DNA of 64,000 nucleotides from assembly GCF_010093025.1 (NCBI RefSeq), contig NZ_CP048114.1:4216001-4280000 (forward strand). The letters are read 5' to 3'. The notes beneath the pieces were generated by a model, which saw only the letters and a program-made list of their open reading frames with translations, had not been told where the DNA came from and ran no database searches. Below, piece by piece: positions 2,651-61,856 of this stretch. Within the stretch, counting starts at the first letter, position 1. The number at the start of each line of letters is the position of its first letter. The stretch is from Edaphobacter sp. 12200R-103. GTDB taxonomy: Bacteria > Acidobacteriota > Terriglobia > Terriglobales > Acidobacteriaceae. A program made the position numbers and the translations under genes.

Positions 2651-2938
2651 ATGATCAGTTTCACGGTACGGATGAGGTTCAGTGCGGCGGATCACGACGA
2701 GATCGCTGAGATACTCCGTAAATTGACCGAGGCTTCACGCCAGGAGCCCGGATGCGTGACCTACGTGCCACACTTTGTTGAAGGTGATGCAAACATGGTT
2801 GTGATCTATGAGCAATATGCCGACGAGGCTGCGCTGGATCACCATCGCAATTCGCTGCATTTCAAGGAATATGCCGTAGGTGGACTGTACCAGAAGATGC
2901 TGGACAGGCAGCTCGAAAACCTGACGGCGGTTTGCTGA
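2651..2938 (+). CDS. Antibiotic biosynthesis monooxygenase (ABM)-domain protein
   Basis: This 95-residue protein has the compact ferredoxin-like ABM/YgiN layout: an initial strand (MISFTVRMRF), a helix ending EASRQEPGCVTYVPH, strand VVIYEQYADEAALDHHRNS, and the typical HF-containing helix near residue 76. Family members act as dimers and are often quinol or small-aromatic oxygenases or have unknown substrates; no substrate can be inferred here. The start is six bases after the purA stop, with GCCGGAGATG giving a GGAG close to the ATG. The gene probably shares the purA transcript, which may be only positional. Confidence 0.8.
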   Translation: MISFTVRMRFSAADHDEIAEILRKLTEASRQEPGCVTYVPHFVEGDANMVVIYEQYADEAALDHHRNSLHFKEYAVGGLYQKMLDRQLENLTAVC

Positions 2939-3037
2939 GGAAGACAGGCAGGAACATCGCGCTCCGGATTTGACGAAGGATTCTATAAAAGTTCTTTTGA
3001 CTCGGGATTCCATCTCGGTCTACTATCCGGTACGCTC

Positions 3038-3598
3038 ATGGTGCCCCGAACATCATCCCGGATCCCTTCGCTTTCACGGAGCGCGCTGGCTGCGACCCTC
3101 CTGCTGCTCTGCTTTTCTTCCAATCTGCGCTCGGAGCAGGACAAAAAACATCATCACAAACAGGATGTAAAAAAAGAGGTTGAGCGCCTTGAGCAGCGCT
3201 GGCGAACGGCGCAGCTGGCGGGCGATGTTGCTACCCTCGACCGCATGTTGGCAGACGACTTTATTGGAATATCCATGTCCGGGGAGGTCCACACCAAGGC
3301 GCAGCAGCTGGACAGAATCCGGAGCAAACGGCTGGTCCTGACCCGGATCGACCTGGACGATATGAAGGTAAAACTGGTCGATTCGGTGGCAATTGTGACC
3401 AGCCAGGCCCTGGTGGAGGGAACAAGCGAAGGGACGCCAGTTCGGGGTACTTATCGGTACACGAGAGTCTACCGTCAGCTGCCGTCCGGAGAGTGGAAGA
3501 TCACCAGTTTTGAGGCGACGCGGATTCGGCCGTCCAGGTCCGCTACTGGAAAACAGGCTCCTGCGGGAACCGTGGTTCAGGAGCCGCAGTTTGGCTGA
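3038..3598 (+). CDS. Secreted SnoaL/NTF2-like (DUF4440-type) protein
   Basis: A 186-residue protein with a basic N-terminus and a hydrophobic segment at about residues 17-29 (ALAATLLLLCFSS), consistent with a signal peptide. The mature part starts with a His/Lys-rich stretch and then has the DUF4440 pattern: a helix with LEQRWRTAQLAGDVATLDRML, the ADDFIGISMSGEVHTKAQQL turn, paired strands around VAIVTSQALVEG, and a final strand with W-KITSFEATRI. Proteins of this fold are small cone-shaped binding domains or enzymes with diverse ligands; no catalytic residue is evident. A clear terminator follows at 3625. The ribosome site before 3038 is weak, so the start could be later. Confidence 0.75.
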   Translation: MVPRTSSRIPSLSRSALAATLLLLCFSSNLRSEQDKKHHHKQDVKKEVERLEQRWRTAQLAGDVATLDRMLADDFIGISMSGEVHTKAQQLDRIRSKRLVLTRIDLDDMKVKLVDSVAIVTSQALVEGTSEGTPVRGTYRYTRVYRQLPSGEWKITSFEATRIRPSRSATGKQAPAGTVVQEPQFG

Positions 3599-4916: not shown

Positions 4917-6824
4917 ATGGTAGATAACCATCATCCCGATCAAACCGAGAGCAAACCCCTGACCACCGAATTGGAAGTCCTAGCGCCCGAAGCGACAGCT
5001 GCGAATGCAGAGCTGTCTTCTGAATCCACCACCAACCAGCAGCATGAGATCGCCCAGCCCGTGGAGTCTCCCGTTGCGGCAGCTACTGAAGCCGCAGAGG
5101 AACCCGACTACGACTCCGCTGACTTTGCCGAGGCTCTGGCAAACTTCGACCGCGAACAGGCGGCCGAGTCTGCCGCAGCACAGAGCCTGACCGCCGAAGA
5201 GGTCATCGTCAACGGTACAGTCGTCAAGATTACGGACAAGCATGTTGTTGTCGATATTGGGCTGAAGTCTGAAGGTCTCATTCCGCTGGAGCAGGTGCTG
5301 GATATCAACGGCGTGCCTAAGTTCCAGACAGGTGATCAGGTCGAGGTCGTCGTCGAGCGCGAAGAGGCCGAAGGCGGTTACCTGGTGAGCTACGAGAAGG
5401 CCTTGCGCCATAAGGTGTGGGACAAGCTCGAGGCCGCGGCCAACGACAAGGTTCCCGTCAAGGGAATGGTTCTGAGCCGGGTTAAAGGCGGCCTGACCGT
5501 CGATATCGGCATCAAGGCGTTCCTGCCCGGATCGCAGGTTGAGATTCGCCCCGTTCGCAACCTCGACGGCTACATCGGCCAGGAGATCGAAGTTCGCGTT
5601 ATCAAGCTAAATAAGAAGCGCGGAAATGTCGTTATCAGCCGCAAGGAACTGCTTGAAGAGGAGCAGAACGCCAAGCGGTCGGTAACCCTGACCACCCTGG
5701 AAGAGGGAACCATCCTTACCGGGACCGTGAAGAACCTCACCGACTACGGTGCATTCGTCGATCTGGGTGGACTGGACGGCCTGCTTCACATCACCGATAT
5801 GAGCTGGGGGCGCCTGACCCATCCGCGTGATCTGGTCAACGTCGGCGACGAAATCCAGGTGAAGGTCCTGAAGTTCGACAAGGACAAGCAGCGCGTGTCC
5901 CTGGGCTTCAAACAGCTGACGCCGGATCCGTGGCTAGACGCTACCGAGCGATATCCGATCGGTGCGCAGGTTCGTGGACGCGTCCTCTCCGTCACCGACT
6001 ATGGTGCGTTCGTCGAGCTGGAGCAGGGAATCGAGGGGCTGGTCCACGTCTCCGAGATGACCTGGTCCAAGCGGATGAAGCATCCGTCGAAGCTGGTCAA
6101 GCCGGGTGACGAGGTCGACACGATCATCCTCAGCGTCAACCCGAATGATCGCCGCATCTCTCTGGGCATGAAGCAGCTTCAGGATAATCCGTGGGAGCAA
6201 CTGGAGGATAAGTATCCTGCCGGCGCCGTGGTTGAGGGCCGTGTCCGCAACCTGACCGACTTTGGCGCCTTCATCGAGATCGAAGACGGTATCGATGGCC
6301 TGGTGCATGTCTCGAACCTGAGCTGGACGAAGCGCATCAAGCATCCTTCCGAAGTTCTGAAGAAGGGCGAGAAGGTGAAGGCTGTCGTTCTGGGTGTCGA
6401 GCCGGAGAACCGACGGCTTTCGCTGGGAGTCAAGCAGCTGCAGCCTGATGTCTGGGATACCTTCTTCGCGCAGCACCGCGTGGGCGATGTCGTCAAGGGC
6501 AAGGTCCTGCGCACAGCGCAGTTCGGCGCCTTCATTGAGATCGCAGAAGGTGTCGAGGGTCTTTGCCATGTCTCTGAAGCTGTGGATGAGAACAATGTTC
6601 CCGTCAAGCTGGACGTTGGCGATGAGCACGAGTTCCGCATTGTGAAGATGAACCAGGACGAGAAGAAGGTCGGCCTGAGCATCCGCGCAGTGGGAGAAGA
6701 GGCGAGCCGCGCCGAGGTGGAGAGCTACAAGGAGCGGGATCATAAGGGATCATCCTCCTCGTCCTCAAGCGGAACCACACTGGGCGATCTGATCAACTGG
6801 AAACGCTCAGAGTTCGGCGAGTAG
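4917..6824 (+). CDS. rpsA: 30S ribosomal protein S1, six S1 domains
   Basis: S1 binds mRNA on the 30S subunit and helps initiation on leaders with weak ribosome sites. Six OB-fold S1 repeats can be read in order, starting at about residues 66, 148, 233, 318, 403 and 488 of this frame. Repeats 3-5 are the most canonical, with the TDYGAFVDLG / GLLHITDMSW and TDFGAFIEIEDGIDGLVHVS patterns. An acidic, Ala/Glu-rich N-terminal extension precedes repeat 1, and a poly-serine linker leads to the end TLGDLINWKRSEFGE. I prefer ATG 4917 (GGAG 10 bases upstream); ATG 4881 would add 12 residues and has no good site. A strong terminator follows. Confidence 0.95.
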   Translation: MVDNHHPDQTESKPLTTELEVLAPEATAANAELSSESTTNQQHEIAQPVESPVAAATEAAEEPDYDSADFAEALANFDREQAAESAAAQSLTAEEVIVNGTVVKITDKHVVVDIGLKSEGLIPLEQVLDINGVPKFQTGDQVEVVVEREEAEGGYLVSYEKALRHKVWDKLEAAANDKVPVKGMVLSRVKGGLTVDIGIKAFLPGSQVEIRPVRNLDGYIGQEIEVRVIKLNKKRGNVVISRKELLEEEQNAKRSVTLTTLEEGTILTGTVKNLTDYGAFVDLGGLDGLLHITDMSWGRLTHPRDLVNVGDEIQVKVLKFDKDKQRVSLGFKQLTPDPWLDATERYPIGAQVRGRVLSVTDYGAFVELEQGIEGLVHVSEMTWSKRMKHPSKLVKPGDEVDTIILSVNPNDRRISLGMKQLQDNPWEQLEDKYPAGAVVEGRVRNLTDFGAFIEIEDGIDGLVHVSNLSWTKRIKHPSEVLKKGEKVKAVVLGVEPENRRLSLGVKQLQPDVWDTFFAQHRVGDVVKGKVLRTAQFGAFIEIAEGVEGLCHVSEAVDENNVPVKLDVGDEHEFRIVKMNQDEKKVGLSIRAVGEEASRAEVESYKERDHKGSSSSSSSGTTLGDLINWKRSEFGE

Positions 6825-6843
6825 TAATACTCACATGAAACTG

Positions 6844-6870
6844 GAAGGGCCGCCCATCGGGCGGCCCTTC
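6844..6870. terminator. Strong hairpin terminator after rpsA
   Basis: Twelve-base-pair GC-rich stem gaagggccgccc / gggcggcccttc with a three-base loop (atc), followed by ttattg. It can also serve the leftward gene ending at 6923. Confidence 0.9.
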
Positions 6871-6922
6871 TTATTGTCAGTTGATTTCGTACTTTGTGTG
6901 ATGCAGGAATAGTTGCCCGATC

Positions 6923-7864
6923 TTATGCAGGGATGGAGTGCATGAGAGGTGAAGATGCTGCAGCCGAGGCAGAGGATATCTCCGTCGGAGCTACATGCGT
7001 CATCTTGGTGGAGGCGCGCCGCATCACCTCGAGCTCGGCCGGAGCAAAGATCTCGGGAGAGATACCGCCCACCGCAACGTATCCAGGCTCATCGCCAAGC
7101 GCCAACGAGATCTGGTTCCAGCGAAGGAAGGGGGATGTCGTCGGAAGAACGATAAGACGCCGCTTCGGCTCCGGGAATGCAAAGTAAGCCGACCAGATGG
7201 TGAGAGTCAGGCAGATAGCAATTCCATTGATGATGTTGATCATAGAACTCATATCTGAACTGTGCGATAACCAAGCTGAATCGACGAGGTTGATTGTCGC
7301 CAGAAATCCTAACCCAAAACTAACCCCGAAGATCCGGCTACCGTGTGAAAGTCCCATCGGCCGAATTGCAAAGCAGACAAAAAGCAGAAGGCATAAAGTC
7401 AAAATGCTCGAGGTCTGCTGCAATTGAGTAATCATCGACACCATAAATTTGATGCCAGTAATGTGCGGGCTGAAAGCGACTCCCATTGCTACGGCAACAG
7501 AGATAACTGCTACCCAACGGAAGATCAGGATACCCAAAGTCTGGAGACCTCTCAACGGCGCCATCGCCAGTTTAAAGATGCTGTAGATCACGAGAAGCGA
7601 AAGGATGGCCTCTAGGGCGTAACTCAGCCAATAAGCATAGAAATAAATTTGATAAGCCAGATGCTTCTCGATAACCTGCCGCCCGCCGCCAGCAAGATAC
7701 AGAACTGGTAAGCAGATGGCTGAAGACATGATCTTCACGCACAGCAGAGAAACCAGGTAGATATAGTTTCTAACCTCTTTGCTGCGCAGCAGGAAAGAAA
7801 GCACCATTGCGCAGAGAATAGGTTCGAGATAAGAAAGCGTGCTGATGAATGCTTCTTGAGTCAT
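6923..7864 (-). CDS. Seven-helix membrane protein of unknown function
   Basis: The 313-residue protein has seven hydrophobic segments (about residues 12-25, 36-58, 70-98, 108-128, 150-166, 180-201 and 208-231) and then a long hydrophilic C-terminal tail that should be cytoplasmic. No catalytic, transport or signalling motif is visible, and I cannot assign it to a named family. It begins 132 bases downstream of the last unit of the five-copy secreted microprotein array and points the same way, so it may be read from the array's promoter. A receptor, exporter or immunity role for those peptides is possible but is inference only. It is followed by the rpsA terminator hairpin. Confidence 0.75.
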   Translation of the reverse strand: MTQEAFISTLSYLEPILCAMVLSFLLRSKEVRNYIYLVSLLCVKIMSSAICLPVLYLAGGGRQVIEKHLAYQIYFYAYWLSYALEAILSLLVIYSIFKLAMAPLRGLQTLGILIFRWVAVISVAVAMGVAFSPHITGIKFMVSMITQLQQTSSILTLCLLLFVCFAIRPMGLSHGSRIFGVSFGLGFLATINLVDSAWLSHSSDMSSMINIINGIAICLTLTIWSAYFAFPEPKRRLIVLPTTSPFLRWNQISLALGDEPGYVAVGGISPEIFAPAELEVMRRASTKMTHVAPTEISSASAAASSPLMHSIPA

Positions 7865-7996
7865 CGATCGCGTCCCCAGTAGACGTTAATAAGCCTAGCT
7901 CAATCCAGGGGCGGAGACAACAAATCTTAACGAGCAAAGTGCATTTTTTTGCAGTGTTTCGGTCGTACACCTAATCCGTACTTACCACCAACATCT

Positions 7997-8173
7997 CTAG
8001 CGAGCGATGCCACAGGCGTTGGGGTCGTCAGGAGCGCACATGGGGATAGGCAGGGCGCTGTTGCGGGCGATGTTGACCTTGGCAGAGCTGGTGGCAGCAG
8101 AGGAGATCTGGGTGGAAGCGAAGGCTCCGGTGACAACGAGGGCGGCGACGACGGAACGGATGATGCTCTTCAT
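7997..8173 (-). CDS. Secreted microprotein, array copy 5 (promoter-distal)
   Basis: This 58-residue frame starts MKSIIRSVVAALVVTGAFAS, a basic end plus hydrophobic core typical of a Sec signal peptide, with likely cleavage after SAATSSA. The predicted mature part is about 26-28 residues, starting near KVNIARNSA and ending PMCAPDDPNACGIAR, with two cysteines seven residues apart that could form one disulphide. It differs from copies 4 and 3 mainly at the stop (TAG instead of TAA), as the repeat ends here. AAAGGA lies nine bases before the ATG. No family is recognised; a peptide signal, antimicrobial or envelope component are all open. Confidence 0.75.
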   Translation of the reverse strand: MKSIIRSVVAALVVTGAFASTQISSAATSSAKVNIARNSALPIPMCAPDDPNACGIAR

Positions 8174-8223
8174 GGGTATGGGTCCTTTAGTTGCTTGAAT
8201 TCAGTAATTTACGAAAGCTGCTT

Positions 8224-8400
8224 TTAGCGAGCGATGCCACAGGCGTTGGGGTCGTCAGGAGCGCACATGGGGATAGGCAGGGCGCTGTTGCGGGCGATGT
8301 TGACCTTGGCAGAGCTGGTGGCAGCAGAGGAAATCTGGGTGGAAGCGAAGGCTCCGGTGACAACGAGGGCGGCGACGACGGAACGGATGATGCTCTTCAT
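8224..8400 (-). CDS. Secreted microprotein, array copy 4
   Basis: The 58-residue product appears identical to copy 3: signal peptide MKSIIRSVVAALVVTGAFAS, linker with SSAATSSAKVNIARNSA, and the two-cysteine tail PMCAPDDPNACGIAR. The 50-base upstream spacer (with AAAGGA before the ATG) is also shared, so translation is likely to be initiated independently in each unit. Near identity at the DNA level, including silent sites, means this copy is a very recent duplicate or kept uniform by recombination. Confidence 0.75.
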   Translation of the reverse strand: MKSIIRSVVAALVVTGAFASTQISSAATSSAKVNIARNSALPIPMCAPDDPNACGIAR

Positions 8401-8450
8401 GGGTATGGGTCCTTTAGTTGCTTGAATTCAGTAATTTACGAAAGCTGCTT

Positions 8451-8627
8451 TTAGCGAGCGATGCCACAGGCGTTGGGGTCGTCAGGAGCGCACATGGGGA
8501 TAGGCAGGGCGCTGTTGCGGGCGATGTTGACCTTGGCAGAGCTGGTGGCAGCAGAGGAAATCTGGGTGGAAGCGAAGGCTCCGGTGACAACGAGGGCGGC
8601 GACGACGGAACGGATGATGCTCTTCAT
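8451..8627 (-). CDS. Secreted microprotein, array copy 3
   Basis: I translated this copy codon by codon: 58 residues, signal peptide MKSIIRSVVAALVVTGAFAS, then TQISSAATSSAKVNIARN, then SALPIPMCAPDDPNACGIAR and TAA. The tail has Pro, Asp and two Cys residues and no hydrophobic anchor, so the product should be released to the periplasm or beyond. The codon choice is GC-rich and like that of neighbouring core genes, so there is no sign of recent transfer of the unit itself. Confidence 0.78.
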   Translation of the reverse strand: MKSIIRSVVAALVVTGAFASTQISSAATSSAKVNIARNSALPIPMCAPDDPNACGIAR

Positions 8628-8677
8628 GGGTATGGGTCCTTTAGTTGCTTGAATTCAGTAATTTACGAAGCTGCTTT

Positions 8678-8854
8678 TTAGCGAGCGATGCCACAGGCGT
8701 TGGGGTCGTCGGGAGCGCACATGGGGATAGGCAGGGCGCTGTTACGGGCGACGGTGACCTTGGCGGAGCTGGTGGAGGCAGAGGAGATCTGGGTGGAAGC
8801 GAAGGCCCCGGTGACAACGAGGGCGGCGACGACGGTGCGAATGATGTTCTTCAT
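8678..8854 (-). CDS. Secreted microprotein, array copy 2 (diverged)
   Basis: This copy starts MKNIIRTVVAALVVTGAFAS and has SSASTSSAKVTVARNSA before the same PMCAPDDPNACGIAR tail. Compared with copies 3-5 it has N for S at position 3, T for S at 7, S for A at 27 and TV for NI before ARN. The C-terminal 18 residues are unchanged, which points to constraint on the mature peptide and relaxed constraint on the signal region. The spacer differs slightly (an extra T before the stop and AATTGC instead of AGTTGC). Confidence 0.78.
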   Translation of the reverse strand: MKNIIRTVVAALVVTGAFASTQISSASTSSAKVTVARNSALPIPMCAPDDPNACGIAR

Positions 8855-8904
8855 GGGTATGGGTCCTTTTAATTGCTTAAATTCAGTAATTTACGAAGCT
8901 GCTT

Positions 8905-9081
8905 TTAGCGAGCGATGCCACAGGCGTTGGGGTCGTCGGGAGCGCACATGGGGATAGGCAGGGCGCTGTTACGGGCGACGGTGACCTTGGCGGAGCTGGT
9001 GGAGGCAGAGGAGATCTGGGTGGAAGCGAAGGCTCCGGTGATAACGAGGGCGGCGACGACTGTGCGAATAACGAACTTCAT
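8905..9081 (-). CDS. Secreted microprotein, array copy 1 (promoter-proximal)
   Basis: The first unit read encodes MKFVIRTVVAALVITGAFAS followed by SSASTSSAKVTVARNSA and the invariant PMCAPDDPNACGIAR tail. Its upstream region is unlike the spacers of the other copies: GAGGTTAACATC before the ATG, then AT-rich DNA with a 6-bp inverted repeat at 9158-9177, so the promoter for the whole array probably lies here. The frame stays open to 9153, but the added residues do not look like a signal peptide, so I use ATG 9081. Confidence 0.78.
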   Translation of the reverse strand: MKFVIRTVVAALVITGAFASTQISSASTSSAKVTVARNSALPIPMCAPDDPNACGIAR

Positions 9082-9416
9082 GATGTTAACCTCGGGAAAT
9101 TTTTTTCCTATGTTGCAAAAGATTTCGCTGGACAGATCAGCTGAAGTAAACATATGATGGACTCGTATATAAGTCCAATGGAATGAATGGTATATAAATG
9201 TATTTAGCGGGTAGAGTTACTGACGTAACAGACGATTTTGAACAGGGTCGAAGACTAACGTGCAAGCGCATCACGGAATTATGGCCAGATGATTGCTTGA
9301 GCGTTTAAAGCGTGACGTTGAAGGCCTGGAGCAAGAACAGATTTTCTCGCGGCACTGAACTCAGGACCCACTCAAAACCAATCCAGCCGGACTCAACAGG
9401 GTCGGTTAAATAGGAA
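9082..9416. other. AT-rich intergenic region upstream of the microprotein array
   Basis: About 335 bases with no credible gene. The part near 9100-9210 is AT-rich (runs of T, TATATAAATG and CGTATATAAG), fitting a promoter region for the leftward array. The rest, 9220-9416, shows nothing I can name. Confidence 0.5.
9158..9177. promoter_or_regulatory. Inverted repeat, candidate operator of the microprotein array
   Basis: tggact-cgtatata-agtcca: a perfect six-base inverted repeat with an eight-base AT-rich centre, 77 bases upstream of the first microprotein start. Position and form suit a regulator site or a promoter element; no regulator can be named. Confidence 0.35.
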
Positions 9417-9446
9417 GGCGCAATCCCCATGGAAGAGGATTGCGCC
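9417..9446. terminator. Hairpin terminator after infC
   Basis: Ten-base-pair stem ggcgcaatcc / ggattgcgcc with a ten-base loop, 24 bases past the infC stop on the minus strand. The T-tract is weak in the minus direction (TTCCTATTT) and better in the plus direction (CTTT). Confidence 0.7.
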
Positions 9447-9470
9447 CTTTGTGCTTTCCTGGATGTCTGT

Positions 9471-10094
9471 TTAGGCCTGGGCTACAGAGCTGTTTGCAGC
9501 CGCCTCGGGTGCATGTCCCTTGTCGGGAGCCGCAGAGGCTTTCTTCGGTGCACTTTCCGCTTTCTTTGAAGGCGCGAGAATGGCATGGAGGGTAGTACCT
9601 TCCATGCGCGGCATAAACTCAACGGTACCGGCCTCTCCCACGTCCGTGATAAGGCGATTAATGATCTTATAACCGAGGTCGCGGTGCGCCATCTGACGGC
9701 CTTTGAAGCGCAGCGAGGCCTTTACCTTATCGCCTTCATTGAGGAAACGGATGGCCTGATTTTTTTTGGTCTGGTAATCGTGCTCGTCGACAGTGACAGA
9801 GAACTTCACCTCTTTAATGGTGATGACCTTCTGTTTCTTCCGCGCGGCCCGATCGCTCTTGTCCTTTTCGTAGAGGAACTTGCCGTAGTCCTGGATCTTG
9901 CACACGGGTGGAACGGCGTTCGGTGAGATTTCAACGAGGTCCAGAGAACGCTCCCGGGCCATCTTCAGGGCCTCAAACGGGGGCATTACGCCAAGCTGTT
10001 CGCCGTTTTCGTCGATGACACGAACTTCGCGGGCGCGGATTCGCTCGTTGGTACGAATAAAGGATTTTGCGGAACGTTTATCGATCGGTGGAAT
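9471..10094 (-). CDS. infC: Translation initiation factor IF-3
   Basis: IF-3 binds the 30S subunit and checks start-codon pairing. The frame holds the full two-domain protein: N-domain FIRTNERIRAREVRVIDENG then MPPFEALKMARERSLDLVEI, a basic linker (KKQKVITIKEVKF), and the C-domain with FLNEGDKVKASLRFKGRQ and GTVEFMPRMEG. The C-terminal Ala/Lys-rich tail of about 30 residues is longer than in E. coli. No ATG, GTG or TTG precedes the N-domain; instead ATT at 10094-10092 sits six bases after a perfect GGAGG (10101-10105), giving 207 residues. AUU starts are known for infC and allow autocontrol by IF-3. rpmI and rplT, which often follow infC, are absent here. Confidence 0.93.
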   Translation of the reverse strand: MPPIDKRSAKSFIRTNERIRAREVRVIDENGEQLGVMPPFEALKMARERSLDLVEISPNAVPPVCKIQDYGKFLYEKDKSDRAARKKQKVITIKEVKFSVTVDEHDYQTKKNQAIRFLNEGDKVKASLRFKGRQMAHRDLGYKIINRLITDVGEAGTVEFMPRMEGTTLHAILAPSKKAESAPKKASAAPDKGHAPEAAANSSVAQA

Positions 10095-10105
10095 AAGTCG
10101 CCTCC
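10092..10105 (-). promoter_or_regulatory. infC ribosome-binding site with rare AUU start codon
   Basis: On the minus strand GGAGG (10105-10101), six bases, then ATT (10094-10092). The N-domain of IF-3 is in frame directly after, and the first in-frame ATG (9986) would delete about 36 residues of conserved sequence. This fits the known AUU-based feedback of IF-3 on its own mRNA. Confidence 0.8.
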
Positions 10106-10406
10106 ACAGCCTGCCTCATAGGCTTGCCATGTGTATCTGTCTTGGATTTACAGTCGCCTGCAAGGAAGCGCTGCACATTGAAGTATAGCATTCCGTTGGA
10201 TGCGAGTGCGGCGGCGAATGATGTGCCCGGTGGACCAACGAGACAGGGCGATGAGAGCATCTTACGCAACGTTCCCTTATGCTTTTCATGCGCTGCATGG
10301 GATTTTTGTACGTTACGGATGTTGTGTATTGTAGGAGACGAATGAATACGAGTTCGCGTCTCTTCAGAGCGGATTTCTTTCCAGGCTGGGAGAAGAGAGA
10401 AGAAAG
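10106..10406. other. Divergent intergenic region infC / response regulator
   Basis: About 300 bases between two divergent genes. It contains short open frames in several phases, but none has a ribosome site plus recognisable sequence. An AT-richer part around 10295-10345 could hold promoters. No leader structure identified. Confidence 0.4.
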
Positions 10407-10955
10407 ATGAAGAAGCGCATCCTGCTGGTCGATGATGAGGTCGCTGTTCTGCTGACATTGAAGGCCGTGCTTGAGATCAATGGCTTTGATGTGGATACGG
10501 CGGCATCGGGACGGGAGGGCAAGCTGAAGCTGCGCTCCAACGAATACGACATGGTGATCAGCGATATGCGGATGGAGAGCGATCAGGCCGGAGCTGCGGT
10601 CATTGCGGCGGCCAGATCGGCTTCGTACCGGCCGGCAGTTGCTCTTCTGACGGCGTACCCGCTGGCAGAGGAGGACTGGCAGGATATGGGGGCGGACCGA
10701 ATGCTGGTAAAGCCCATGCATACGCGCCTTCTGCTGGAGCAGATCGATCGCTTAATGAAGAGCCACGAGACTAAGCGCGCGGGCAAAGGTTCAACGTTGA
10801 GCGCAGACGCTATATCCTCTGAAACCACGAAGAAATCAACCACCAAGTCGGGCGCGAAGAAGATGGTTAAGGCGCCAGACAGCAAAAAGACGGTGGCAAA
10901 GACCACCAATACCACTTCCAGAAAAGCGGCCCGGCCGTCCGCAGCGAACCGCTGA
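10407..10955 (+). CDS. Response regulator receiver domain with a lysine-rich tail
   Basis: Residues 1-115 form a CheY-like receiver: acidic pair D9-D10, phospho-acceptor D53 in MVISDMRM, T82 in LLTAYP and K102 in LVKPMHT are all present, so phosphorylation should work. There is no DNA-binding output domain. Residues 120-182 are a disordered Lys/Ala/Thr-rich tail (KKSTTKSGAKK, KKTVAKTTNTTSRKAARPS) of the kind seen in histone-H1-like proteins, which might bind nucleic acid. GAGAGAAGAAAG precedes the ATG. Downstream, convergent, is a lone histidine-kinase dimerisation domain; a functional link is inference from position. Confidence 0.85.
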   Translation: MKKRILLVDDEVAVLLTLKAVLEINGFDVDTAASGREGKLKLRSNEYDMVISDMRMESDQAGAAVIAAARSASYRPAVALLTAYPLAEEDWQDMGADRMLVKPMHTRLLLEQIDRLMKSHETKRAGKGSTLSADAISSETTKKSTTKSGAKKMVKAPDSKKTVAKTTNTTSRKAARPSAANR

Positions 10956-11006
10956 ACAACCGCGTTGTTGAATAACCGCTTTAGCTGAAATAGGTGGTTA
11001 CGCCTG

Positions 11007-11276
11007 TCAGGGCTGGGAGTTTTCCTTAACGTAATTTCGCAGGGCCAGGTTAATGTCCATGGCCTTGTTGACTCCGTTGTCCAGCATGCGGAGCCATTCG
11101 GAACCTGGCTCCTTCAGGCCGACCGTGCCTAACAGATAACTGGTCTGGACGATTACCTCAAGCGCGTTGCTGAGTTCGTGCGCCATCTTCCGGATCTCGA
11201 TGGCGAGATCTGCAGGGATGGTCTCACTTGCCTTACCGGGAGCCTGGGGTGGCGAACTGTTCGCAGGTTTGTTCAT
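11007..11276 (-). CDS. Lone HisKA/DHp-like helical domain protein
   Basis: A protein of 89 residues. After a Pro/Ser-rich start, residues 23-85 read like the dimerisation/phospho-acceptor domain of a histidine kinase: AIEIRKMAHELSNALEVI with H33 in the HEL-N position of the H-box, then a second helix (EWLRMLDNGVNKAMDINLALRNYV). No ATPase domain follows and the frame ends cleanly, so it is not a fragment broken by a visible frameshift. It could act as a phosphotransfer adaptor, a decoy for another kinase, or a structural relic. It converges on the receiver-only regulator at 10407. Confidence 0.65.
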   Translation of the reverse strand: MNKPANSSPPQAPGKASETIPADLAIEIRKMAHELSNALEVIVQTSYLLGTVGLKEPGSEWLRMLDNGVNKAMDINLALRNYVKENSQP

Positions 11277-11410
11277 GTTCTGGCAGCGCTCCTTGCAGTG
11301 ACCAGTCTAGACGACGATCGCGCGTAATTGACAGGCGACCTGTGCTTTGCGACACTAAAGACTCGCGGTTGCGGTGTTCAGCCTTATAAGGCAGAGCGTG
11401 TACGACCGTT

Positions 11411-11497
11411 GCCGAAGTGGCGGAATTGGCAGACGCGCATGGTTCAGGTCCATGTACTCGCAAGGGTGTGGGGGTTCGAGTCCCCCCTTCGGCACCA
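11411..11497 (+). tRNA. tRNA-Leu (anticodon CAG)
   Basis: An 87-base gene with acceptor stem gccgaag / cttcggc, discriminator A and encoded CCA (11495-11497). The anticodon arm catgg-ttCAGgt-ccatg gives CAG, reading CUG. The long variable arm and GGTTCGAGTCC T-arm are as expected for a class II leucine tRNA. A terminator hairpin follows at 11518. Confidence 0.96.
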
Positions 11498-11517
11498 AAA
11501 GATTGAAGCAGGCTCCG

Positions 11518-11547
11518 AGAGAGAAGCGATCATGCTTCTCTCTTTTG
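11518..11547 (+). terminator. Terminator after tRNA-Leu
   Basis: Perfect ten-base-pair stem agagagaagc / gcttctctct, six-base loop, directly followed by TTTT. It starts 20 bases past the tRNA CCA end. Confidence 0.85.
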
Positions 11548-11654
11548 CTTTGTGATCCTTTTTCCCTTGAAGATGTTGCTTTCAACGGAAGCCCCCTTGG
11601 GCTCGAGGATCTGTTTCTCTGCTATCGCGACGATACGCACTAAAATGAAGGTAT

Positions 11655-12464
11655 ATGCCGACCCGACTTGATGAGATTGTTGCGAATACGTCCCGTGAGG
11701 TGGCGGAACGAAAAGCCGTTGCAGATAAAGGTCTGATCGAGCAGAGAGCCGCTGCTCACACGCCGCGGGGTTTTGCTGCGCGGCTGAAAAGCGTAAGCCA
11801 GAATGGCCCTGCCATGATCTCCGAGATCAAAAAGGCCTCCCCATCGAAGGGCCTGATCCGCGAGGATTTCGATCCGTTGGCTTTAGCGAAGGGCTTTGAG
11901 GCTGGAGGCGCGGCTGCGCTCTCCATCCTGACCGATACGAAATACTTCCAGGGATCGCTGGCATACCTTGAAGCGGCCTCACAGGCGGTGAAGATCCCGT
12001 GCCTGCGAAAGGACTTCATCGTCGATCCCTTCCAGATGGTGGAAGCCAGGGCCTTTGGGGCCGATGCGATCCTGCTGATTGTGGCGGTCCATACCGATAC
12101 GGAGCTTGCGAGTCTGCGCAAGGAAGCTCACAACTACGCGCTGGATGTTCTCTGCGAGGTCCACTCCTCCGAGGAGCTGAAGCGGGCGGTCGATCTGGGG
12201 TTCGATGTGATCGGTGTGAACAGCCGTGACCTTCGCACCTTCGAGATGCACCCGGAGCTTCTGTTCGAGCTTGTGGATGCTATGCCCGCGGGCACGGTGA
12301 AGGTGGCTGAGAGTGGCCTGCGCGGTGCTGAGGAGATCGCAAAGCTGAGGGATGCGGGCTATGATGCGTTCCTCATGGGCGAGACTCTGATGCGACAGCC
12401 TGATCCTGGTGTGGCGCTGGCAGAGCTGCTGCGACATGGGTACTCCGAACGGGTCCTGCGATGA
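11655..12464 (+). CDS. trpC: Indole-3-glycerol phosphate synthase
   Basis: TrpC closes the indole ring of CdRP to give indole-3-glycerol phosphate. The 269-residue TIM barrel has the family signature motifs: MISEIKKASPSKGLI with the catalytic lysine, LSILTDTKYFQGS, PCLRKDFIVDPFQ with the second active-site lysine, GANSR-like VIGVNSRDL, and VAESGL plus FLMGETLM for phosphate binding. The stop overlaps the trpF start by four bases (ATGA), so the two are translationally coupled. No other trp genes are seen here; the rest of the pathway must lie elsewhere. Confidence 0.96.
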   Translation: MPTRLDEIVANTSREVAERKAVADKGLIEQRAAAHTPRGFAARLKSVSQNGPAMISEIKKASPSKGLIREDFDPLALAKGFEAGGAAALSILTDTKYFQGSLAYLEAASQAVKIPCLRKDFIVDPFQMVEARAFGADAILLIVAVHTDTELASLRKEAHNYALDVLCEVHSSEELKRAVDLGFDVIGVNSRDLRTFEMHPELLFELVDAMPAGTVKVAESGLRGAEEIAKLRDAGYDAFLMGETLMRQPDPGVALAELLRHGYSERVLR

Positions 12465-57439: not shown

Positions 57440-58783
57440 TTAATGAACCGTGTTCCGAGGATGCCAGAGAGCTCGCCTTATCGGAAGACCGACGGAGAAT
57501 TGCAGGTTTGGGGTGTCCGGGGTCAGACCTACGCCAAAGCTTAGATCGATGGTTCTGCCGGGAGCATAGAGATAAGAGGCTCCTAGCCGCAGAGACCCTT
57601 CCACCAGGAACGAAGCCGGGATGGTCTTCCCGTTCAGCGTCGTTGCGCGCGTAAACCGCTGGTCCCAGCCAATCGTCATCGAGGTCTCAGGATTGAGCGA
57701 GAGAATGGATCCGAGCTGGAATCCTACAGAATCGCCTGGATTGAAGTGACCGGGGATCATCAGGCCGGGATTGTCAGGATCGTTCGCCGGAACGGAGTGC
57801 GTTCCATCGAGATTCGCCGTATAGGAGAAGTTGCCGAACATGACGATCGGATCATTGGATTTGGCTGCCGTAAGGTTTCCCTGAACGGCATAGAAGCCTG
57901 TTCCCAATGCGGTCTGGCTGCTGTTCAGGTTGAAGCTGTCGATTCCGGTCGTGGTCTTGAAGCGCACATTGGCCAGCAGGTCCGGAATGTTGCCATGCTC
58001 AAGCGCCAGCTGACGTGACAGCCCGAAGGTAATGTCGCCCAGCCCAAAGGTACTCTGATTCGTCTGTGTGTTGTTGACGTCCACGGTCCGGTTCAACTGG
58101 TACCCATACGGAATATAGGTGTCGAACTGCAGCTTGTGCGGAAGACCGAGACGCGCCGAGAAAGTGGGGAGCAGAAGATCCTTGCGGACCCGCTGCGAAG
58201 CGATGTCGCCAACCACCAGCACCGGCAGGATCGCAAATCCATCGATATTGATCCGGTCCGTGGTAGAGCTGAAGTAGGAGGTCGTGTTGTCGAGCTCGAC
58301 CGTGCCCGGAGGCAGCAGCAGGCCGCCGCGAACGATGAGTGCCTGGTCGAGCGCCTGGCTCGCCTGACGCTCTTCCGCGTCGTAACCAGCGTTGGTCACT
58401 ACGGAGGTTACGGCCGCGGAGGCTCCCACACGCGGAGCAGGAGCGGCCGGAGCCGACGAAGAAACGGCAGATACAGGCTTATTGACGAGATCTTTCGGTG
58501 AGGTGGTGAAGCCGCCATTGACTCTCCACTCCAGCTCCTGCACCCTCTCAAGCAGGTTGCGAATAACGGCGTCTCGCTCCCGCAGAGCATCGTTCAGTCT
58601 CTGGTTGACCGCGGCCAGCAGAGACTCCTGCTGCGACATCGGCATTGTCTGATTTGCCGTTTGCTGATGCGTCTGTTGCTGAGGCGAAGCGCTGTGTTCC
58701 TGGGCCTGCATGGCCGAGGTTAACCAGAGAAGGCAGCAAAGAAGAGGTGCGACATCGTACGGCTTGAATTTCGTCATGTGCAT
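57440..58783 (-). CDS. FapF-like outer-membrane protein: coiled coil plus beta-barrel
   Basis: 447 residues with a signal peptide (1-28). Next is a Gln-rich stretch, then a coiled coil at about 52-90 (LLAAVNQRLNDALRERDAVI, LLERVQELEWRV), a Ser/Pro/Ala linker, and from about residue 150 a region of alternating strands (VELDNTTSYFSSTTDRINIDGF, TFGLGDITFGLSRQLA, SFLVEGSLRLGASYLYAPG) that looks like a 12-14 strand barrel. FapF of Pseudomonas, the pore that exports functional amyloid subunits, has this order: coiled coil, linker, barrel. It is last in the four-gene operon, 18 bases after the C39 gene. Without that context one would call it a general outer-membrane transporter. Confidence 0.8.
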   Translation of the reverse strand: MHMTKFKPYDVAPLLCCLLWLTSAMQAQEHSASPQQQTHQQTANQTMPMSQQESLLAAVNQRLNDALRERDAVIRNLLERVQELEWRVNGGFTTSPKDLVNKPVSAVSSSAPAAPAPRVGASAAVTSVVTNAGYDAEERQASQALDQALIVRGGLLLPPGTVELDNTTSYFSSTTDRINIDGFAILPVLVVGDIASQRVRKDLLLPTFSARLGLPHKLQFDTYIPYGYQLNRTVDVNNTQTNQSTFGLGDITFGLSRQLALEHGNIPDLLANVRFKTTTGIDSFNLNSSQTALGTGFYAVQGNLTAAKSNDPIVMFGNFSYTANLDGTHSVPANDPDNPGLMIPGHFNPGDSVGFQLGSILSLNPETSMTIGWDQRFTRATTLNGKTIPASFLVEGSLRLGASYLYAPGRTIDLSFGVGLTPDTPNLQFSVGLPIRRALWHPRNTVH

Positions 58784-58801
58784 CGATCTGGCCTTTTGGT
58801 G

Positions 58802-59500
58802 TCAGTAGAGGTAGTTCGGAGGAATCGCGACGCCGATCTCGCGCTGAATGGTGGTTTCGTCCGGGATGGTGCGAGAGGCGATGGTAGGGTGCTTTTCGGT
58901 CAGCATCAGATCGGTCGGTGGATGGACGATGAAGACGATTCCCTCTTTCCACAGCCTCTGGAAGCGGTCGACCTTCATGGTCAGGTTGCCGAAGCCTGGA
59001 TCGGCGATGATCACCCTGCCGTTGACGATCCTGTGCACGACGATGAAGTGATCGAACCCCTTCAGACGAATAGGAACGATGACAGACGTCTTCTGTGAAG
59101 CCAGCTCTTCGAGAGACATGCCGGCGTAACCTTCTGCGTGATAGCCGCGTGCCTGGGCAAAGCGCTTCAGGTCGAGCAGGGAGAATCCGCCGCGCGCGCG
59201 AACCTTGACGGGATCGACGCGATGCAGAATCCATACGACGATGGCCGTCTCGGGAGTGTTGTCTTTGAACTCGTAGGTAAGGAGGGTGCTCAGGGCCGCT
59301 GCTCCGCAGCTCATGTCCCACTTCTGTCGCACGACACCTTCGCCGCGAATCTCTTTCAGGCTGCGAATTCTTTTGCCAGCCTGCTCATCTGCGTTCTCCC
59401 CGGTTTGGGAGAACGCAGATGCTGTGACTACCAGAACGCTCGCCAGGGTCAGGGCGAGCGTTCTGAACCAGAGCCGGAACCGGGCAGCAGGAAGGAACAT
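58802..59500 (-). CDS. FapD-like C39 peptidase-family protein, exported
   Basis: 232 residues with a hydrophobic signal segment (about 14-31). The papain-like C39 fold is complete: VRQKWDMSCGAAALSTLLTY with C65, GFSLLDLKRFAQARGYHAEGY, IVPIRLKGFDHFIVVHRIVN with H151, and VIIADPGFGNLTM with D167. There is no ABC transporter attached. FapD in Pseudomonas fap operons is such a stand-alone C39 protein, and the LLDLKR, GFDHF and ADPGFGN blocks fit what I recall of it. The start overlaps the previous stop by one base (TGATG), so translation is coupled. It probably trims or handles the amyloid subunits in the periplasm. Confidence 0.88.
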   Translation of the reverse strand: MFLPAARFRLWFRTLALTLASVLVVTASAFSQTGENADEQAGKRIRSLKEIRGEGVVRQKWDMSCGAAALSTLLTYEFKDNTPETAIVVWILHRVDPVKVRARGGFSLLDLKRFAQARGYHAEGYAGMSLEELASQKTSVIVPIRLKGFDHFIVVHRIVNGRVIIADPGFGNLTMKVDRFQRLWKEGIVFIVHPPTDLMLTEKHPTIASRTIPDETTIQREIGVAIPPNYLY

Positions 59501-59943
59501 CAAGGTCTTCCATTCAGATTGGACTGCGTCAGTGTCGACACAGTGGAGTTGATGTTTACGTTGAGATTCAGCAGCACGTTGATCTTCGAGTTCACGGCAT
59601 TGATGTTTACCAGAGAACTGAGATTCTGCTGGGCATTGCCGTTCAGGCTGAGCGTTCCCATCGTGTTGCCGGCGAGGGGTCCGCTCTGAAGAGCCAGAGA
59701 GCCTGTGCTCGAGACCAGACCGTTGGGCGTAGGTGTCTGGCCTGCAAAGCGAACGACGCCCTCAGAGATTCCCGCCGTCACGCTGCCGGCAGTCACCTGG
59801 TCGAGAGCGGCGTCGCTGAGAGGCTTCGCCTTCGTCACGGTTTTGTTGTGAGCCTTGGGGGCCGGCGGCGTTTGAGCACCTGCAACCGCCAGTCCCGCTG
59901 AACTCAGCACTGCCAGAGTTGCCATCACAAGAATTCGTTGCAT
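59500..59943 (-). CDS. Small exported protein of the Fap-like operon (putative minor subunit)
   Basis: 147 residues from ATG 59943 (GGGAG seven bases upstream), signal peptide about 1-23. Residues 42-53 read LSDAALDQVTAG, like the leader motif ahead of a C39 cleavage site. The C-terminal half is Asn/Leu/Ser-rich and aggregation-prone looking: LALQSGPLAGNTMGTLSLNG, then INAVNSKINVLLNLNVNINS and a final LTQSNLN. Composition, export and place between the repeat protein and the C39 gene suggest a nucleator or minor subunit like FapB or FapE; I cannot say which by sequence. Confidence 0.72.
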   Translation of the reverse strand: MQRILVMATLAVLSSAGLAVAGAQTPPAPKAHNKTVTKAKPLSDAALDQVTAGSVTAGISEGVVRFAGQTPTPNGLVSSTGSLALQSGPLAGNTMGTLSLNGNAQQNLSSLVNINAVNSKINVLLNLNVNINSTVSTLTQSNLNGRP

Positions 59944-60032
59944 ACCTTGCTCCCGTGAAGGAGGAGGCCCGGCGTCTGCAAAGGGGGCCGGAGCGAAAGG
60001 CACCGGACCCAAGGTAGACGCCGAACGGTCCT

Positions 60033-61856
60033 CTAGCGAACCTGGCTGATGGTGTTGGACTGGTTGATGGTCGGGGCGGAGTTCATGTTGGACGTACGTG
60101 CAACGTTGACTCCGTTGGAGACCATGCCGCCCGCCGCATTGACGATGTTCAGCGCCTTTGCATTCTGCATGGCGCTGTCGGCAAGCGCGACGGTGTAGTT
60201 GTTGGTTGCTGTTACCGTCGAGCCATCGACCGCGACATACTTTCCGCTGGCGGAGTCGAAGGCGACGGCGCCCTGCTTGTCGTAGGTCAGGTCAAGCGAC
60301 TGTACGGTGTGGTTGGAGTACGACTTCGATTTGTTGCTCGATACGCTGGCAGCCAGGCTGGAGCTGTTGCTCTCGCTCGCCGCAAGGGAGTCGCTGGTCG
60401 AGTTGCTGGCATTCAGGCTTGCATTCTTCGCCGAAGACTTGCTCGCGCTCAAGGACGCATTCTCCGACTGGCTTGCATCCAGCGACGCCGACTTGCTGGA
60501 CGACTTGCTGGCCGCTGCATTCAGAGAGTTGGAGCTGCTCGAAGACTTGCTGGCTGCAGCATCGAGCGAGTTGGAGTTTGAAGCCGACTTGCTGGCTGCG
60601 GCATCCAGCGAGTTGGAGTTCGACGCCGACTTGCTGGCCGAAGCGTCCAATGCAGCGCTCGCCGAGTTGGATTTGCTGGCTGACAGGCTCTTGTCGGAAG
60701 AGCTGCTGTTGTTGGACGCAGAGTTCGAGGCCGAGTTGGAGGTATTCGAAGCCGTATTGGCCGTCGTGTTGCTGCCGTTGGTCGCCGAACCGTCGGAAGC
60801 CGACATATCATGCGCTGTCGTTCCGTTGGAGGCAGAGGTATTGCTTCCGCTGGTGCCACTGTTGTTGTACGCGGTGTTGCCCGTATTGGTGGCAGAGCCA
60901 TCCGGACCCGAGGAGACGGAGTTCGAGGTGCTGTTGGTGTTCTGCGTCGCATTGGCAGTGCCGGCATTGGACGCGGAGGAATTATCGGCAGCGGAGTTCG
61001 TCTTCGATGCGCTTGCGTTCAGCGCGGAATTCGAGCTGAGGGATCCGTTTGCCGATAGAGAGGCATTAGCGCTCTTCGAGGATGAAGCATTCGTGGAGAG
61101 CGAACGATTTGCACTCTTCGAGGAAGAAGAATCGGTAGACAGCGAAGCATTTGCATTCTTCGAGGCCGAGTTGGTGGTCGCCAGCGAAGCGCTGGAGTTC
61201 TTGGACGAGGTTGCGTCCGTCGAAAGCGAGGAAGACTTGCTCGCGCTCGTGGTCAGAGAGGCATCATGCGTATTGCTGTAGGTGGTTGCCAGGCTGTTGG
61301 TCTTCGTATGGTCGACGTTCAGGCTCTTGTTATTGCTGTTGGACGTCTGCAGCGATCCATTGAACGTGTCGGTGCTGGATGCGCTCTTGGTGACGTCCGA
61401 GGAAGTTGTCGCGGTCAGAGACACATTGGGGTCCCGCGAGTAGCCCGAGATGGATCCCATCTGCGCGCTGCTCTGCGTGACATCGTTGCTCTGGCTGACG
61501 TCTGCACCGCCATTGCTGGCTGGCGACGACATCGTGCCGCTGTAGACGTTGACACCATTGCCGACCAGCGCATCGGAGGAGTTGACGATATTTACTCCCG
61601 AAGCTCCGTTCAAAGAGCTTCCGCCCAGACTCACAGATCCCGTGTTATTGACGGTGGCGGTGGAATTGTTGGCCGCGACAGCGGTATTCTCCTCGCCGGC
61701 TGCAGTGACCTTGTCCATCTGGTTGTCACGAAGCGCGCGGGTCTTGCTCTGCTTCTTTTCGTTCTTGTTTGAGGAGTTGTTCGAATGGTTGCTCTGGGCG
61801 TATGCCTGTCCAGAGACGACTAAGGCTGTAACTAAAGCAGTTGCGATCGTTTTCAC
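60033..61856 (-). CDS. Ser/Ala/Asn-rich repeat protein, putative functional-amyloid subunit
   Basis: 607 residues from GTG 61856, with GGAGG (61862-61866) five to six bases upstream; a signal peptide covers 1-20 (ATALVTALVVSGQAYA). Residues 42-54, LRDNQMDKVTAAG, match the leader-like motif of the next gene product. Residues about 150-535 are low-complexity repeats built of Ser, Ala, Asn, Lys and Asp (for example SLDAAASKSASNSN). On both sides is a matching motif: NIVN (89-92) and NGVNV (100-104), and NIVN (570-573) and NGVNV (581-585). No cysteine. This fits an extracellular fibre protein of the FapC kind; direct homology is not proven. Confidence 0.82.
   Translation of the reverse strand: MKTIATALVTALVVSGQAYAQSNHSNNSSNKNEKKQSKTRALRDNQMDKVTAAGEENTAVAANNSTATVNNTGSVSLGGSSLNGASGVNIVNSSDALVGNGVNVYSGTMSSPASNGGADVSQSNDVTQSSAQMGSISGYSRDPNVSLTATTSSDVTKSASSTDTFNGSLQTSNSNNKSLNVDHTKTNSLATTYSNTHDASLTTSASKSSSLSTDATSSKNSSASLATTNSASKNANASLSTDSSSSKSANRSLSTNASSSKSANASLSANGSLSSNSALNASASKTNSAADNSSASNAGTANATQNTNSTSNSVSSGPDGSATNTGNTAYNNSGTSGSNTSASNGTTAHDMSASDGSATNGSNTTANTASNTSNSASNSASNNSSSSDKSLSASKSNSASAALDASASKSASNSNSLDAAASKSASNSNSLDAAASKSSSSSNSLNAAASKSSSKSASLDASQSENASLSASKSSAKNASLNASNSTSDSLAASESNSSSLAASVSSNKSKSYSNHTVQSLDLTYDKQGAVAFDSASGKYVAVDGSTVTATNNYTVALADSAMQNAKALNIVNAAGGMVSNGVNVARTSNMNSAPTINQSNTISQVR

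Follow-up and report, generated by a model that had tools for sequence, protein, structure and literature searches.

The stretch of DNA analyzed here (hereafter the window: 64,000 nucleotides of the soil acidobacterium Edaphobacter sp. 12200R-103, lying within a single-contig genome of 4.55 Mb) carries, at positions 57440 to 61856, four tightly packed genes on the minus strand that encode, in order of transcription, two exported proteins, which we call P1 and P2, a stand-alone C39 peptidase, and an outer-membrane barrel resembling FapF of the Fap system (fapABCDEF) of Pseudomonas. P1 (60033..61856, GTG start at 61856) counts 607 residues, in which a general secretory (Sec) signal peptide is followed by a putative C39-type leader (residues 42-53, 61698..61733), an N-terminal module (residues 73-128, 61473..61640), a linker of 425 residues, 72% of which are Ser, Ala, Asn, or Thr (residues 129-553, 60198..61472), and a C-terminal module (residues 554-605, 60042..60197); the longer frame of 611 residues includes 164 Ser, 94 Ala, and 82 Asn. 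P2 (59500..59943, ATG at 59943) is an exported, Asn/Leu-rich protein of 147 residues with a Sec signal peptide, a putative leader of the same type (residues 42-53, 59785..59820), and one module (residues 96-147, 59503..59658), the signal peptides having been called by eye rather than by a predictor. Next come the exported C39 peptidase (58802..59500, ATG at 59500, 232 residues, with Q59, C65, H151, and D167) and the barrel protein (57440..58783, 447 residues), in which a coiled coil, delimited by eye at about residues 56-91, precedes a FapF-matching barrel domain (residues 168-434). P1 and P2 are separated by 89 nucleotides and the C39 and barrel genes by 18, while the P2 stop overlaps the C39 start as TGATG, which couples the two genes. 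A sequence-only reading of the window had described this leftward packed operon, and its coordinates, its numbering of C65, H151, and D167, and the TGATG coupling all proved correct, as did its account of P2 as a small exported Asn/Leu-rich protein. Its attribution to a probable acidobacterium agrees with the best named matches of the C39 peptidase (Acidobacteriaceae bacterium KBS 146, 83%; Edaphobacter modestus, 80%). As for P1, depicted as an exported Ser/Ala/Asn repeat protein, export and composition hold, whereas the repeats do not run throughout, since one module lies near each end of the 425-residue linker.

Behind the signal peptide, both P1 (LRDNQMDKVTAA) and P2 (LSDAALDQVTAG) carry what looks like a bacteriocin-type C39 leader, a putative tag for the system's own protease, and it is this apparent leader on both cargo proteins, overlooked in the sequence-only reading, that is new here. 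The motif is hydrophobic at positions -12, -7, and -4, with Ala at -2 and Gly, Ala, or Ser at -1 (a VTA[AGS] type). In its strict form, it is found in all 36 P1 and P2 proteins (hence in 18/18 P1) of 18 acidobacterial loci holding the full gene set (17 unique P1 and 17 unique P2), a count that is descriptive because the motif was derived from these same proteins, and in none of the 2,095 other mechanically called open reading frames (ORFs) of the 24 fetched loci and the window, a set in which 432 begin with a signal-like N-terminus. When TA[AGS] alone served as anchor, positions -12, -7, and -4 were hydrophobic in 15/15 unique P2 segments, every other position from -15 to -1 was so in at most 2/15, and +2 was hydrophobic too; only P2 was used for this profile, the anchor having hit the signal peptide in 7/15 P1 segments. 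In solved C39-leader complexes, -12, -7, and -4 are the positions reported to dock in the groove (PMC6363468, PMC6959990).

The other two proteins of the operon are distant homologues of FapD and FapF. The C39 protein matches Pfam Peptidase_C39 at an E value of 8e-17, and the active-site Cys, His, and Asp together with the oxyanion Gln are invariant in 12/12 aligned C39 sequences, the window's included; FapF crystal structures from the PDB match residues 168-434 of the barrel protein at about 3e-17, and its coiled-coil heptads are visible by eye in the alignment. The stand-alone exported C39 protein and the coiled-coil outer-membrane barrel proposed from sequence are thus both recovered. Among NCBIfam models, the barrel scores 87 bits against FapF (NF058560; E 1.1e-24, equivalog cut-off 700) and 59 bits against FilC (cut-off 630), and the C39 protein scores 120 bits against FilB (cut-off 475), slightly above its 105 bits against FapD (cut-off 330). 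Neither is therefore an equivalog of the Fap proteins by NCBI's rule, and the expectation that both would match Fap families better than others is borne out for the barrel and not for the C39 protein. It may be noted that the FapD and FapF profiles of a 2013 survey were reported there as unspecific, with 96% and 69% false positives, respectively (PMC3792158).

A FapF-family search found matches in 10/41 relatives and, among 396 genomes sampled from the phylum, in 29 at E <= 1e-3, 17 of them at 1e-9 or better. The 17 strong genomes belong to the window's genus, apart from one of a different genus in the same family and two that share a genus in another family; the other 12 (E 1.6e-5 to 8e-4), each matching only part of the model, were left out of the membership count. 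We fetched 24 acidobacterial loci, 22 from strong FapF-family matches and 2 from weak ones, and P1, P2, C39, and barrel genes occur in the same order in 18 of them (17 genomes, including the window's). The remaining six comprise two decayed loci (L047 and L058), two loci from the other family with C39 and barrel genes and neither P1 nor P2 (L048 and L057), and the two weak loci, which hold none of the genes. The P2 and C39 profiles each match 9/41 relatives, the same nine. The upstream gene pair of the window lies within the fetched stretch in 12/18 loci, some stretches being short, and it also adjoins the two decayed copies, a pattern that suggests a single site at which the operon was inherited or lost; of these copies, L047 retains a broken barrel gene and pieces of P1, C39 being absent, and L058 a barrel fragment. 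Beyond this sample, a scan of named genomes returned 42 C39 loci, and when the 22 most similar (L061-L082) were queried with P1, P2, C39, and barrel, all four genes were found in 22/22, although the P1 frame of L075 opens close to the start of the contig and matches weakly at the N-terminus. Seventeen of these loci are Acidobacteria, partly the same genomes as in the 24-locus set, so that the two sets overlap, and five are proteobacterial by label (a Proteobacteria metagenome-assembled genome [MAG], a Deltaproteobacteria MAG, Marinobacter iranensis, Ectothiorhodospira haloalkaliphila, and a Pseudomonadales MAG), an occurrence that the sequence-only reading had also missed. Since the four-gene order recurs in 18/24 and 22/22 loci, the operon is not a product of chance, and a survey of gene order of the kind which that reading had proposed indicates that the set travels together. 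By these sequence comparisons, the system is real and well conserved, and it is related to Fap without being a Fap operon.

Regarding the cargo, the N- and C-terminal module families of P1 are homologous (hhalign E 3e-18, with 0/200 column shuffles as good), and the P2 module shows a more distant and partial similarity to them (E 4e-5, probability 69%, 28 columns, 0/200 shuffles as good). P1 ORFs range from 238 to 611 residues across the 18 loci, so that the linker is the variable part; the 375-residue case is the P1 of L056 (4640-6312), present in two overlapping frames that we read as a frameshift or a sequencing error in the Ser-rich linker. One genome (G018) holds two copies of the operon (L043 and L045), with P1 frames of 238 and 516 residues; it is listed as 7% contaminated and may be a mixture of two strains. 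In Granulicella sp. dw_53 (L070, 6113-7465), the P1 homologue displays three module cores (residues 243, 316, and 414) instead of two. Matches of P1 to immunoglobulin chains in the PDB (E 0.02-0.7) were set aside as composition noise, and the weak NCBIfam matches of P1 and P2 and weak Pfam matches of P2 were likewise dismissed.

The distribution of leaders was then considered along a midpoint-rooted C39 tree of 55 rows drawn from 59 loci (L076, identical to L075, L088, on the same contig as L048, and L142, which is the L080 locus, were dropped, and L102 gave no row). The window's own C39 is absent from the rows, its close relatives being present (L061 is 83% identical); they form a 24-row clade of moderate support (91/95), which falls outside both the FapD and the FilB-like clades. 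The other groups are 5 FilB-like rows, a 19-row RGG group (90/91), 2 FapD rows (L135 and L136), which join the RGG group, and 5 others. Three leader types, VTA, RG[GRK], and GQ, were sought among the neighbors of C39. The VTA type was found in 23/24 loci of the clade of the window's relatives and in 1/19 of the RGG group, 0/2 of the FapD, 0/5 of the FilB-like, and 0/5 of the other loci; the RG[GRK] type in 18/19 of the RGG group, 2/2 of the FapD, 1/5 of the FilB-like, 1/5 of the other, and 0/24 of the window's clade; and the GQ type, ending in TGQ, in 4/5 FilB-like loci, with 1/24 in the window's clade and 0 elsewhere. The same patterns sought on the opposite strand gave 1, 4, and 0 of 55. Across the 55 loci, leader type largely follows C39 clade. 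The three patterns were written after many loci had been seen, and previously unread loci served as a held-out set: the expected type was found in 8/8 of those from the VTA and RG groups (VTA 1/1, L091; RG 7/7, L092, L093, L094, L095, L096, L097, and L099, some of these being closely related among themselves or to loci already seen) and in 2/3 of those from the Fil group (L143 and L146, not L144). In three held-out loci of another group (L098, L100, and L101), the scan found none of the three types. Two loci (L147 and L141) are missed because they fall below the hydrophobicity threshold, though leader-like stretches are visible in them, and off-type matches occur for VTA in L086, for GQ in L065, and for RG in L146 and L085. 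Anchoring on RGG alone, over 54 mixed segments of which many are chance matches, gave hydrophobic peaks at -12 (27/54) and -7 (28/54), the next highest position before the cut reaching 18/54.

Several C39 loci show cargo of other kinds. On a Crenothrix polyspora contig (L083), three small exported proteins with VTAG or VSAG leaders, by eye unlike P1 and P2, lie upstream of a C39 gene of the same clade as the window's relatives. In L138, an identical 167-residue protein with an RGG leader is encoded twice within 3.4 kb (3-503 and 2867-3367), and in L137, L138, and L141, all from the order of Marinobacter, Asp/Asn/Ser-rich repeat proteins adjoin the C39 gene, putative cargo that may form a further fiber-like class.

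A version of the leader also occurs in the two fap loci. The protein that we take to be FapE carries an RG-type leader in both (LKDQELAQLRGK in L135 and LSDSELAQQRGR in L136), as does a small unnamed protein of L136 (LEDGDLASIRGR), and a presumed FapA of L135 has a looser leader-like stretch, FapE and FapA being named here from gene position and general appearance rather than by profile. FapB and FapC of these loci show no leader, except that the signal peptide of one FapC copy of L136 contains a match to the pattern. The FapF of L135 scores 762 bits, above the cut-off; exact repeats mark L136 as fap-like, but both FapF (373 bits) and FapD (283 bits) of that locus fall short of their cut-offs. 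The latter locus (5627-11927) also has FapC-like and FapB-like genes flanking the C39 gene on both sides, as if partly tandem-duplicated.

Taken as a whole, the operon is, in our judgment, likely to encode a complete secretion system dedicated to two surface proteins, one that shares the Fap chassis and constitutes its own branch. In it, a C39 protease would remove leaders, a pore would release the products, and these would probably assemble into fibers. P1 and P2 would cross the inner membrane via Sec, and the periplasmic stand-alone C39 protein would recognize a second signal behind the Sec peptide, that is, a bacteriocin-type leader helix with its hydrophobic residues at -12, -7, and -4, and would cut after VTA-A/G. 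The matured and largely unstructured proteins could then exit through the coiled-coil FapF-like pore, and outside the cell the Asn/Gln-rich modules at the two ends of P1 and the single module of P2 may associate into fibers, with P2 as a possible nucleator or anchor and the long Ser-rich linker of P1 remaining exposed as a hydrophilic brush. Leader cleavage and export through the barrel are steps that we infer, and fiber or amyloid formation by P1 and P2 is plausible, the chances being about evenly balanced.

A number of observations speak against this model or some part of it. Position -2 is Ala in 36/36 proteins, not the Gly of canonical double-glycine leaders, and -1 is Gly, Ala, or Ser. 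A loose pattern that keeps only the residue classes at -12, -7, -4, -2, and -1 fits 79/432 signal-like background ORFs, so that one leader call taken alone, in a distant locus, carries little weight; what supports the leader is the strict shared motif together with the clade pattern. Confidence is also lowered by the fact that the window's C39 is not itself a row of the tree. FapA to FapD have been reported as unprocessed in Fap (PMC5557850), so that processing of the fiber proteins here would be a difference from that system, and the leader-like stretch of the L135 FapA-like protein runs counter to a simple leader rule. The P1 modules compared with 15 repeats from the two fap loci reach hhalign probabilities of 6-10%, and P2 of 1%, with 1, 2, and 5 of 200 column shuffles as good in the three comparisons for P1, which makes kinship of the P1 modules with Fap repeats a weak hint at most. 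Finally, predicted structures are poor, with a mean predicted local distance difference test (pLDDT) of 46 for a short natural P1 homologue of 207 residues (L067) and 57 for P2, and these models offer no fold in favor of amyloid.

This last point leads to the main rival to fibers, in which Sec, C39, and pore act as described above and the products form a non-amyloid hydrophilic surface coat, adhesin, or tether, with the end modules docking to a partner or to the cell. Such a coat, which we regard as possible though on the unlikely side, would suit a 425-residue linker so rich in Ser, Ala, Asn, and Thr, the want of a confident beta fold, and the absence of exact Fap repeats; however, two homologous Asn/Gln-rich modules around a variable linker resemble the repeat-linker plan of FapC, and the pore belongs to the family of an amyloid exporter. 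Fap is among the closest known systems: both it and the operon combine a periplasmic stand-alone C39 protein with a coiled-coil FapF-type pore and export Asn/Gln-rich proteins whose modules are separated by a variable linker. One may then ask whether the operon is a true Fap orthologue from which fapA and fapE have disappeared, as its FapF-like barrel and FapD-like C39 beside two Asn-rich exported proteins could suggest, fapA being reported absent from 6/16 genera in the 2013 survey (PMC3792158). We hold this to be highly improbable and did not file the operon as Fap. Indeed, of the Fap repeat X15GX4NX3GX6NX7, a pattern scan for the core GX4NX3GX6N gave 0 matches in the window's four proteins, P1 has two modules instead of the usual three of FapC, both substrates bear VTA-type leaders, FapA and FapE are absent from the four-gene operon (as judged by its gene content, without FapA or FapE profiles, and for the operon only, not the rest of the genome), the scores lie far below the equivalog cut-offs (87/700 and 105/330 bits), and the relatives of the window's C39 fall outside the FapD clade. 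Hence, of the label Fap-like given in the sequence-only reading, the homology of the C39 and barrel proteins stands and the repeat, FapA/FapE, equivalog scores, and FapD clade do not, and its wording of a distant or parallel version of Fap remains a fair description.

Other C39-based systems invite the same comparison. The Fil system (putative pilus system FilB/FilC, NF050078/NF050079) shares a C39 and a barrel of the same superfamilies and has neighbors in which a signal peptide is accompanied by a leader-like motif, but assigning the operon to Fil was rejected on the basis of scores below cut-offs (FilB 120/475, FilC 59/630 bits), a separate C39 clade, and leaders of the VTA[AGS] type where those of Fil end in TGQ in 4/5 loci; the FilB of another paper is an unrelated flagellin methylase (PMC11784438). 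In the Neisseria nap island, the C39 protein NapP and the FapF homologue NapF are proposed to mature and export GG-leader products (PMC11798529), and the C39-type leaders seen here could likewise signal an export system for bacteriocin-like peptides. This we find quite improbable, in that nap products are small cationic peptides linked to autolysis, whereas P1 and P2 are large Ser/Asn-rich proteins (607 and 147 residues), both with signal peptides, the modules of P1 are duplicated and conserved, and none of the four genes resembles, by eye, a small cationic peptide or an immunity gene. Peptidase-containing ATP-binding cassette (ABC) transporters such as LahT and ComA share C39 homology, the catalytic triad, and leader positions -12, -7, and -4, whereas the window's C39 is free-standing, has a signal peptide, comes without an ABC transporter, and faces a leader with Ala at -2.

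The secretion model favored here for the window may be one case of a wider arrangement. We lean toward the view that Sec-C39-FapF secretion systems make up a broad family, within which the periplasmic C39 of each clade would cut its own leader type (VTA-G/A, RG-G/R/K, or TG-Q) behind a Sec signal, the acidobacterial operon being a branch whose fiber proteins carry the leader; the same rule would place exact FapD cut sites in FapE, after LxDxELxxxRG-R/K. The pairing of a C39 protein with a FapF-type pore is not in itself new, since homologues of fapD and fapF lying together had already been described from five additional phyla in a 2018 review (PMC6173800). As for Acidobacteriota, the phyla for which a 2025 survey of GTDB gives Fap are others, and the string "Acidobacteri" has 0 occurrences in its main text (PMC12822426); among the matches listed for the open-access PMC literature, no paper on this operon was found, the leader letters themselves not having been a search target. 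The present results add for Acidobacteriota an export system of the FapF-like kind that has cargo of its own and may be amyloid.

What FapD-type proteases cut has been a recurrent question. A 2017 paper describes Fap proteins as lacking canonical C39 sites and suspects FapE or FapF as the FapD substrate (PMC5557850), the relevant passage of the 2018 review gives the substrate as undetermined (PMC6173800), and a December 2025 review has FapD thought to process FapE and FapF (PMC12822426). In this regard, a leader common to two otherwise different cargo proteins suggests an answer, and because P1 and P2 share it at the positions of the solved complexes, the protease-substrate question becomes testable with a few point mutations. 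If the leader rule were true, the points at which FapD cuts FapE would follow from it, a matter that neither the 2017 nor the 2018 Fap paper had settled.

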